A stretch of 64,000 nucleotides of DNA from Sphingobium sp. CR2-8. GTDB lineage: Bacteria > Pseudomonadota > Alphaproteobacteria > Sphingomonadales > Sphingomonadaceae. The notes under the pieces were generated by a model. The model saw only the letters and a program-made list of their open reading frames with translations, had not been told where the DNA came from and searched no databases. A program made the translations under genes and the position numbers. Shown piece after piece: positions 1-62,000 of this stretch; position 1 is the stretch's first letter; each line of letters begins with the position of its first letter. The DNA lies in the NCBI RefSeq assembly GCF_035818615.1, contig NZ_JAYKZY010000002.1:3226501-3290500 (forward strand). The letters run 5' to 3'.

Positions 1-87
1 AAATTCGTCGAGCGATTTGGGACGCAGCGCGGCGTCGACATCCTCTGGACGGCGCGCGGGGGTGATGAGGCGATCGTCGTCAGTCAT
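1..87 (-). CDS. ruvB: RuvB Holliday junction branch-migration helicase (5' end only)
   Basis: Only the first 29 codons are in the window; the gene runs off the left edge. The start ATG is the reverse complement of 85-87, and the peptide begins MTDDDRLITPARRPED and ends near LRPKSLDEF, the typical RuvB leader that precedes the FVGQ segment of the AAA+ domain. RuvB is the ATP-driven motor that works with RuvA on Holliday junctions. ruvA lies upstream on the same strand, but a GIY-YIG gene and its repeats separate the two. A G-rich tract (GAGGGACGGGGG on the coding strand) precedes the ATG and could be the ribosome binding site. Confidence 0.85.
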   Translation of the reverse strand, partial: MTDDDRLITPARRPEDVDAALRPKSLDEF

Positions 88-108
88 GGCCGACCCCCGT
101 CCCTCACG

Positions 109-134
109 TCATGCTGAACGTGTTTCAGCATCCA
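109..134. repeat. Left palindromic arm of the GIY-YIG element
   Basis: An imperfect palindrome reading ATGCTGAAC, two bases, then GTTTCAGCAT. It is the inverted counterpart of 482-507. The TGA stop codon of the GIY-YIG gene (125-127 on the minus strand) lies inside this arm, so gene and repeat are physically fused at the 3' end. Confidence 0.8.
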
Positions 135-451
135 TCGTGCCGCGCGCGCGGATCGAGCGGAGGAAGGCCAAGGTTGACGGCCAGATCTACCCATTGCGGG
201 TTTTCCGACTCGATCAGATTGATCTTCCATTGGCGATGCCAGCGTTTGAGTTGCTTTTCGCGCGGGATCGCTTGCTCCATCGTATCGCAGGGTTCGTAGC
301 GGACAAGGCGATGGACGCTGTATCTGCGCGTAAAGCCGGGTATCGTATCCGTGCGATGCTGGATCAGTCGGCCCAGCAGGTTGGACGTCACACCGATGTA
401 GAGCGTGCCATAGGGCTGGCTTGCGAGGATGTAGACGCAGGGTTCCTTCAT
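125..451 (-). CDS. Small single-domain GIY-YIG nuclease-family protein
   Basis: A 108-aa protein that is essentially one GIY-YIG domain of the small UPF0213/YhbQ-like type. Visible elements are VYILAS (residues 6-11, the GIY strand with Tyr7), LYIG (17-20), Arg28 in the following helix, Glu65 in PREKQLKRW as the expected metal ligand, and NPQW (84-87). The catalytic set looks complete. I chose the ATG at 449-451 because the domain begins there and GGAAGGGA lies upstream; an in-frame extension to 505 would run through the flanking repeat. Physiological role is unknown for this subfamily. The ruvA-ruvB position and repeat bracketing suggest an acquired gene. Substrate and activity cannot be read from sequence. 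Confidence 0.85.
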   Translation of the reverse strand: MKEPCVYILASQPYGTLYIGVTSNLLGRLIQHRTDTIPGFTRRYSVHRLVRYEPCDTMEQAIPREKQLKRWHRQWKINLIESENPQWVDLAVNLGLPPLDPRARHDGC

Positions 452-481
452 CCGCACATCCCTTCCGTGCGAGCGGCCTGA

Positions 482-507
482 TGGATGCTGAAACAAGTTC
501 AGCATGA
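482..507. repeat. Right palindromic arm of the GIY-YIG element
   Basis: A 26-bp imperfect palindrome, the inverted counterpart of 109-134. It starts TGGATGCTGAAAC and ends GTTCAGCATGA. It lies 16 bp beyond the ruvA stop codon and 30 bp before the GIY-YIG start, so it sits in the ruvA-ruvB transcript as a potential hairpin. Confidence 0.8.
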
Positions 508-523
508 CAGAAATGCGCGTTAC

Positions 524-1132
524 TCACTTCGACGCCTTCCGCAGCGCGAGCCGCACCAGCGCGTCGAGGCTGGCGCCTTCGCCCAAATCCTCTTCGGCCG
601 CAGCGACGGCGACGCTGGCCTCATGCGGTTTGAAGCCGAGATTCTGGAGCGCGGACAGGGCATCGGCGGCGAAGCTGCCGACTGGCATCGCCACCACGCC
701 GCCCACGCCGATCGGGCTGCCCACGGGGGCTGCGCCGATCTTGTCCTTCAGTTCGTTGACGATGCGCTGGGCCAGTTTCGGCCCCACCCCGTTCGCCCGC
801 GCGATCATCGCCTTGTCCCCCATGGCGACGGCGCGATGCAGGTCATGCGGCTCCAGCGCGGACAGGATCGCCAGTGCGACGCGCGATCCGACGCCCTGCA
901 CATGGGTCAGCAGCCGATACCAGTCGCGTTCGTCGGCGCGGGCGAAGCCGACCAGCCGGATCGAATCGGCCGCCACCAGCATTTCGGTATGGATCGTCAC
1001 CGCTTCGCCGACTGGCCCCAACGCGGCGAGCGTGCGCGACGACGCACCGACCAGATAGCCCACGCCGCCCACATCGATGATGGCATGGTCGATGCCGGTG
1101 CTGTCCAGCAGCCCTTTGAGTTTCGCGATCAT
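524..1132 (-). CDS. ruvA: RuvA Holliday junction DNA-binding subunit
   Basis: 202 aa, the usual RuvA length. It begins [10 protein letters not shown] (OB-fold domain I). Two helix-hairpin-helix motifs follow, QGVGSR around residues 79-84 and NGVGPK at 114-119 (domain II), and a C-terminal three-helix domain III ends RLALRKASK that contacts RuvB. RuvA binds four-way junctions and loads the RuvB motor. ruvC is not next to it in this window. The upstream 140 bp separate it from a divergent ClpP-fold gene, so its promoter should lie there. Downstream, the GIY-YIG element intervenes before ruvB. Confidence 0.97.
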
Positions 1133-43372: not shown

Positions 43373-43421
43373 AGGCACAGGAATGTGTCCAGTCGATCGA
43401 CATGGACCCTATTTTCCATCG

Positions 43422-43508
43422 TCACCCTGAACTTGTTTCAGGGTCCATCTATCCTCTTCGATCAAGGCACCCGGCGGCGGGATGGATGCTGAAACACGTT
43501 CAGCATGA
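43422..43508. repeat. Gene-less copy of the GIY-YIG-type repeat pair
   Basis: The arms 43422-43447 and 43483-43508 are inverted and 35 bp apart. The right arm (TGGATGCTGAAAC ... GTTCAGCATGA) matches the arms at 482-507 and 109-134. The left arm has changed ATG/CAT ends to ACC/GGT, with both sides changed together, so the small hairpin is kept. It has the architecture of a REPIN. Confidence 0.8.
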
Positions 43509-43866
43509 CGGATAAGGCGTGATAGCCAGCCATCATCAGCCAGATATCGGGCTGAAAGAAGACCTCGCCCCACACCTCGAATCCCCGGCATCTCCACCCC
43601 ATCCTATTTGCTTCCAAAATAGGATTTCGTCTGATCTATCCTGTCGGATGAACCCGTACGCTCGCCTTTCCGCACCGTTGCGCAGCCGTGACCCGATCGT
43701 GACCCACATGTCGCTTGGCTGTCGCGTCGCCGTGACCCTAGCGGCGCGTCGGTGGTGCATCGCGCACGCTTCGGCGGCGCGTACCTGTCGCCATGCCGCC
43801 AAAAAACCGCGGGAAACGCAACCCTGCAACGGTGTGAACTTCGCGACCGTGACCCTGTCGGTCGCT
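43509..43866. other. Convergent intergenic stretch with short repeats
   Basis: No gene is supported here. ATCCTATTT and AAATAGGAT form a hairpin at 43601-43625. CGTGACCC occurs four times on the plus strand (43687, 43698, 43731, 43848), the first two one helical turn apart. CAACGGTGTGAACTTCGC at 43827-43844 is shared with the region before purH. queG and the lipoprotein gene converge here. Confidence 0.45.
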
Positions 43867-61976: not shown

Positions 61977-62000
61977 CTTCGACAGGCTCAGCCCGAACGG
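61977..62000. repeat. Single dispersed repeat of the CTTCGACAGGCTCAG family
   Basis: CTTCGACAGGCTCAGCCCGAACGG lies between rplT and the LysE gene. It shares CGACA-GCTC and GAACGG with each half of the 54-bp palindrome at 3981-4034, in the sense of a half-element. Confidence 0.55.

Follow-up and report, generated by a model that had tools for sequence, protein, structure and literature searches.

In the REPIN/RAYT system (the REPtron), an inverted pair of REPs with a GTAG tag surrounds a single enzyme gene, that of an HUH/Y1 tyrosine transposase, and gene-less dimers are found elsewhere. Another class of REPs was described by Di Nocera et al. (2013, PMC3733652) and has a CGTC or TGTC tag, a stem of 8-9 bp, a loop of 4-5 nt and a CCA-like tail. 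These repeats form head-to-head dimers, are mostly intergenic and were described in five phyla, mainly in alphaproteobacteria; their hosts include Sphingobium chlorophenolicum, Azospirillum lipoferum, Sinorhizobium meliloti and Neisseria. The main text of that paper reports no associated or dedicated transposase genes for the class, and the string "GIY" does not appear in it.

Slx1 and ANKLE1 are described as cutting branched DNA. Work by Chenal et al. in Nat Commun in 2025 reportedly describes Ssn, small GIY-YIG site-specific single-strand nucleases that, in Neisseria and widely elsewhere, go with a sequence repeated in the genome. The pair reported below would resemble Ssn in combining a small GIY-YIG nuclease with repeated sites. 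The CGTC repeat class is already known, and the pairing of a GIY-YIG enzyme with repeated sites has reportedly been published too. A full-text literature search returned, among the matches listed, no paper that joins GIY-YIG nucleases with REPs; the Ssn paper lies outside the searched literature, so this is a weak negative.

A GIY-YIG gene between inverted REPs at ruvA-ruvB

The locus lies near one end of a 64,000-nt stretch of DNA (the window), and its features are collected in Table 1. The first-pass annotation had described two inverted palindromes of 26 bp bracketing a complete 108-aa GIY-YIG gene, with the stop codon inside one arm and the whole unit separating ruvA from ruvB. This description holds in every respect but the arm length, which is 28 nt by the CGTC definition; the stop codon occupies positions 127-125. 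All three genes are co-directional, and an alternative upstream ATG within the 5' arm would give a protein of 126 aa.

Table 1. Features of the REP-flanked unit and related elements in the window
Feature	Positions	Strand	Remarks
Whole REP-GIY-REP unit in the ruvA-ruvB gap	107..509	-	Other genomes have no unit there; ruvA and ruvB overlap by four bases in 17 of 30
CGTC-tagged REP arm, 3' side of the gene	107..134	+	CGTC tag; contains the gene's stop codon
CGTC-class REP arm, 5' side of the gene	482..509	-	TGTC tag
GIY-YIG nuclease gene, 108 aa, single-domain	125..451	-	Core domain 179-442
ruvA, upstream neighbour	524..1132	-	
Start of ruvB, downstream neighbour	1..87	-	Continues beyond the window
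91-bp head-to-head REP dimer (REPIN-like), same family, gene-less	43420..43510	.	Arm-pattern match 43486-43509 (-)

The arms are embedded in an inverted repeat of 45 nt with 89% match. In computed folds each arm has a stem of 8 bp closed by a loop of 5 nt, and both the 4-nt tag at its 5' end and the CCA tail stay unpaired. The arm pattern was found three times in the window against 0.00 expected from 100 shuffles, which excludes a chance origin of the matches.

The arms have the tag, the 8-9 bp stem, the 4-5 nt loop and the tail of the CGTC REP superfamily, and like its members they are multicopy and form head-to-head dimers (PMC3733652). The four hosts named above are also among the carriers of GIY-YIG genes found here. 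The difference is that the main text of that description reports no associated transposase genes, whereas here the arms go with a GIY-YIG gene. We considered membership in the RAYT/REPtron group (HUH/Y1, IS200/IS605, GTAG REPs) and rejected it, the protein matching PF01541 and the tag being CGTC or TGTC.

The GIY-YIG protein

The 108-aa protein matched Pfam PF01541 (GIY-YIG) at E 9e-14, and no NCBIfam model matched it. Residues Y8, Y19, R29, E66 and N85, which we take to be catalytic, were invariant across 39 sequences, and an AlphaFold2 model reached a mean pLDDT of 92.6. The nearest solved folds were UPF0213 (E 0.007), Slx1 and UvrC, all weak and none at E<=1e-3. By Pfam match, catalytic Y/Y/R/E/N and fold, the last through weak matches, the protein belongs to the GIY-YIG superfamily. 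It shares domain, catalytic residues and predicted fold with UPF0213, the UvrC N-domain and Slx1, with weak sequence and structure matches in each case; these nucleases are not known to have flanking palindromes. Over 92 aa the window protein shares 59% identity with the sole homologue found in one N. gonorrhoeae record; that gene is presumably ssn.

At the same-genus ruvAB loci the median dN/dS was about 0.10, with synonymous sites near saturation. This value comes from 17 of the 20 loci, leaving out the window's own copy, which is intact, and L038 and L041, the two copies of the 20 with a stop in the core domain. Some GIY-YIG copies contain one in-frame stop (TGA; TAA in L018); they include L018 and L020 of the window's own genome as well as copies in G007, G024-G026, G034, G054 and G079, and those of type B still keep their arms. 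Such copies may be relics moved in trans, or may use a downstream start.

Related genes are bracketed by CGTC hairpins

A gene was scored as bracketed when a strict CGTC hairpin, with its tag pointing outward, lay within 200 bp on both sides, and control windows were drawn from the same loci. The window's own genome has nine GIY-YIG matches, seven placed in clade 1 and two in a more distant clade 2. All seven clade-1 genes are surrounded by an inverted match of at least 14, with three arm types between them, and six have the CGTC hairpin on both sides (control 0/84). A same-genus search gave a GIY-YIG match at E 0.001 in 87 of 94 genomes, clade 2 included; among the best 29 loci from other genomes, hairpins were present on both sides in 24 and on one side in 5 (control 0/348). 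For a phylum sample, in which 184 of 398 genomes had a match, we scored 69 loci, one per genome (29 among the matches listed plus the next 40 genomes in list order), and found hairpins on both sides in 35, on one side in 15 and on neither in 19, with 2/828 control windows bracketed. A set of 80 named loci, which overlaps the same-genus set in 11 genes, gave 63, 15 and 2, respectively (control 3/960). Pooled over these four clade-1 sets, 5 of 2220 control windows were bracketed.

The association proposed in the first-pass annotation therefore extends well past this locus: bracketing is far commoner at relatives of the gene than in control windows, and the arms accompany such genes at other loci. 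A further 21 same-genus genes (L124-L143), kept out of the same-genus counts above, had the hairpin on both sides in 13 cases and on one side in 1. The seven among them without a strict CGTC hairpin have palindromes whose tags or loops differ, and so do several of the 19 such phylum loci, where the tag is another one or the loop is longer.

Eight loci from plasmid-collection records were scored for the same hairpins. Both sides were occupied in A. lipoferum (in the sufB-sufC gap), S. meliloti, a Rhizobium and a Sphingobium plasmid, and one side only in Neisseria gonorrhoeae and Aeromonas caviae; no arm was found at the Photobacterium and Planktothrix loci (one record each). The N. gonorrhoeae (2.17 Mb, L353) and A. 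caviae (4.9 Mb, L355) records are of chromosome size but filed as plasmids. On the Planktothrix agardhii plasmid (L359), the GIY-YIG relative has a type IIL restriction enzyme gene on one side and the DISARM gene drmA on the other, with GTCATTCTGAG-type repeats nearby.

Dispersal of the arms

Counting the arm sequence showed a dispersed family, present mostly as head-to-head pairs. The 4.5-Mb own genome contains 15 distinct arm sites at <=2 mismatches, with none for the reversed-pattern control; ten of these sites have a partner hairpin no more than about 300 bp away, and two further sites are the unit's own arms. Seven gene-less head-to-head heterodimers of 90-92 bp were found, ending in CGTC...GACG (with a TGTC tag in one), and their flanks look unrelated to one another. 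In two sister genomes, several dimers (L245, L246, L254, L365) share at least 12 bases past the tags, so the dimer border is not sharp there. A pyrimidine precedes the tag in 193 of 221 GIY-YIG arms. Comparisons of close genomes for REP insertions gave differing gaps and no clean recent insertion, target duplication or resolved target site; four copies in G026 with equal scores sit at the ends of contigs and were unusable for borders. An arm string also occurs in the text of a Neisseria paper (PMC2527323).

Arms and protein vary together

Arm distance was correlated with protein distance across 154 proteins from which near-duplicates had been removed (Mantel 0.68, 0/2000 permutations, uncorrected for host descent); before dropping the 11 near-duplicates shared by two sets the value was 0.70 (n=165). 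For the 50 phylum-sample loci with an arm, the corresponding value was 0.34 (0/2000 permutations, likewise uncorrected for host descent). To separate co-variation from host descent, paralogues of one genome were compared with the nearest relative in another genome, with seven genes omitted for want of a strict arm (L135, L136, L139, L140, two in L141, L142). The arms followed the protein in 18 of 24 ordered comparisons, which are not independent since 22 come from the own genome and 2 from G024. All six failures trace to L020, a single locus that shares 52% identity with its closest relative in the set.

Copy number was compared between genomes with and without this subtype, defined as a GIY-YIG match at >=70% identity. 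The 26 genomes with it have a median of 7 type-A arm copies vs 0.5 in the 68 without (P 2e-10, uncorrected for host descent), and the excess persists after removing the unit's own arms (P 4e-8, again uncorrected for host descent). Exceptions exist: among the 68 genomes without the subtype, 34 have one or more type-A copies, and G054 alone has 29. Arms and nuclease are probably a working pair, since the repeat flanks the gene, is scattered in the genome and changes in step with the enzyme in relatives. Judged from these sequence comparisons, the pairing of the GIY-YIG nuclease with CGTC hairpins is well supported.

The ruvA-ruvB junction as a recurrent home

The ruvA-ruvB gap holds 20 of the best 30 same-genus loci, the window's own included, and in all 20 the gene is co-directional with ruvA. 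Of the 40 arms at these loci, 38 pass the strict test; the spacers diverge. Junctions without the unit, whose existence the first-pass annotation had left open, do occur in same-genus genomes, and the gene is not kept at ruvAB throughout the genomes examined. Of 30 same-genus genomes chosen for lacking such a locus at ruvAB, 17 have a four-base overlap of the ruvA stop with the ruvB start (GTGA in 14, ATGA in 3), and the remaining junctions hold a short spacer (2), a lone REP (1) or other DNA (10).

Among the named loci, 37 of 80 lie between ruvA and ruvB, 12 co-directional with and 25 opposite to these genes. On the protein tree (88 columns, bootstrap not settled), ruvAB occupancy has to change 12 times, and well-supported branches force at least five of these changes, which makes the gap a recurrent home. 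The unit would have arrived there repeatedly, been lost, or flipped between its inverted arms. The 80 named loci fall into 26 neighbourhood groups, which speaks against the single host site of a homing endonuclease gene, yet the 37 loci do share one gap. In the L175, L183 and L196 junctions an unrelated small gene, by eye of ParD-type antitoxin appearance, sits between ruvA and ruvB. The junction thus tolerates several kinds of insertion, since some same-genus genomes have the ParD-like gene there.

Proposed role of the nuclease and competing explanations

The explanation that we consider likely is that the GIY-YIG nuclease acts on its own target sites, with the REP-gene-REP unit and the dimers as a mobile or selfish form. 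The nuclease would recognise the CGTC-tagged hairpin when it is single-stranded, during replication, repair or uptake, and would cut at the unpaired tag or close to it. A minimal selfish or mobile unit would be delimited by the inverted arms, the gene-less dimers of 90-92 bp would be its non-autonomous forms, and cutting would drive the spread of the repeats. Recognition of a single-stranded hairpin fits the inverted arms, the strand-specific tag and a fold known for branched DNA. Hydrolysis of DNA by GIY-YIG enzymes involves no covalent link, so RAYT-style transposition is not an obvious route. The analogy with REPINs drawn in the first-pass annotation stands in that bracketing, co-variation and dispersal tie the repeat family to a GIY-YIG gene rather than a Y1 transposase; the mobilising role we infer, together with recognition and cutting. 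Counted against this explanation are the loci without a strict CGTC hairpin, the failure to find a clean recent insertion or target duplication, the type-A copies in genomes without the subtype, the stops in L038 and L041 and the unsharp dimer borders.

The same cognate pair might instead serve to cut or mark single-stranded DNA in uptake, recombination or repair, the arms acting in regulation or self-protection and the nuclease spreading nothing. In its favour, conservation at ruvAB extends to the arms as well as the protein, and the same-genus genes there all run with ruvA; a neisserial GIY-YIG relative modulates transformation, and the window protein resembles the N. gonorrhoeae homologue. 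We regard this as a serious but unlikely account: it does not need the higher REP copy number of gene-bearing genomes or the unit's changes of neighbourhood over time, and the gene is opposite to ruvA and ruvB in 25 of the 37 named ruvAB loci. Accidental bracketing, in which CGTC REPs land in intergenic gaps and happen to enclose a small intergenic gene, draws on the abundance of REPs in some genomes and on the mostly intergenic position of the class (PMC3733652). It is very improbable and, as it stands, refuted by the control windows, only 5 of 2220 being bracketed; moreover, the arms follow the protein inside one genome, two GIY-YIG clades have different palindrome classes, and distant GIY-YIG rows lack such arms (inverted match >=14 in 0/8). 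Least credible is a role of the arms as ordinary terminators of the gene or as hairpins that stabilise its mRNA. They do lie near the start and stop of the gene, but the unpaired tag and tail are kept outside the stem, arms also occur gene-less as dimers, and the window copy, read from its sequence, has no T-run after the arm 3' of the gene.

A consistent, co-varying nuclease partner, if real, would explain the origin of the CGTC REPs, for which the main text of the original description names no dedicated transposase (PMC3733652). REP spread would then be testable with an enzyme of roughly 100 aa and short oligos, and the pairing could yield many site-specific nucleases with predictable targets.

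A second GIY-YIG clade with a different palindrome

Clade 2 is a more distant, URI-like GIY-YIG clade of the same genus (61 genomes searched), and its genes are accompanied by the palindrome CGTTCG-nnCTGAG...CGAAG. We had considered the URI-like proteins as a negative control; they were dropped, having palindromes of their own, and weak distant rows were used instead. At 31 clade-2 loci the GTTCG-type palindrome was present on both sides in 16, on one side in 11 and on neither in 4. The CGTC hairpin was found on both sides at 0/31 of these loci and on one side at 3/31, all three being one and the same GGTC hairpin; conversely, the GTTCG type occurred on one side at 1/105 clade-1 loci and at 0/80 named loci. 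Eight distant weak GIY-YIG rows (L402-L408, L410), scored without control windows of their own, showed no inverted match of at least 14; a ninth, L409, is a clade-1 gene and was not counted among them. Strong clade-2 members of the phylum sample had an inverted match of at least 14 in 15 of 20 cases, often with a core like CCTGAG...CGAAGG, and the GTTCG pattern itself in 2 of 20, on one side only.

The second clade with its own palindrome class provides a built-in specificity control. It also allows a broader proposal, which we hold only tentatively and think somewhat doubtful: GIY-YIG nucleases would be the missing dedicated enzymes of the CGTC REPs, a separate clade would serve the GTTCG superfamily, and both would propagate REPIN-like dimers through strand cleavage followed by repair, without a transposase, the ruvA-ruvB gap being a home that is occupied repeatedly.

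The own genome contains 105 GTTCG-type sites (control 0), many of them paired about 50 bp apart. In single-stranded folding, the two simple GTTCG-type palindromes performed worse than the CGTC arms, with z values of -0.9 and -1.0 vs -3 to -4.6. One GTTCG-tagged palindrome lies in the window at 61987 (-); this family is commoner in the own genome than type A and is often head-to-head. Some clade-2 arms (L165, L171) look nested, with one GTTCG-type hairpin in the loop of another.
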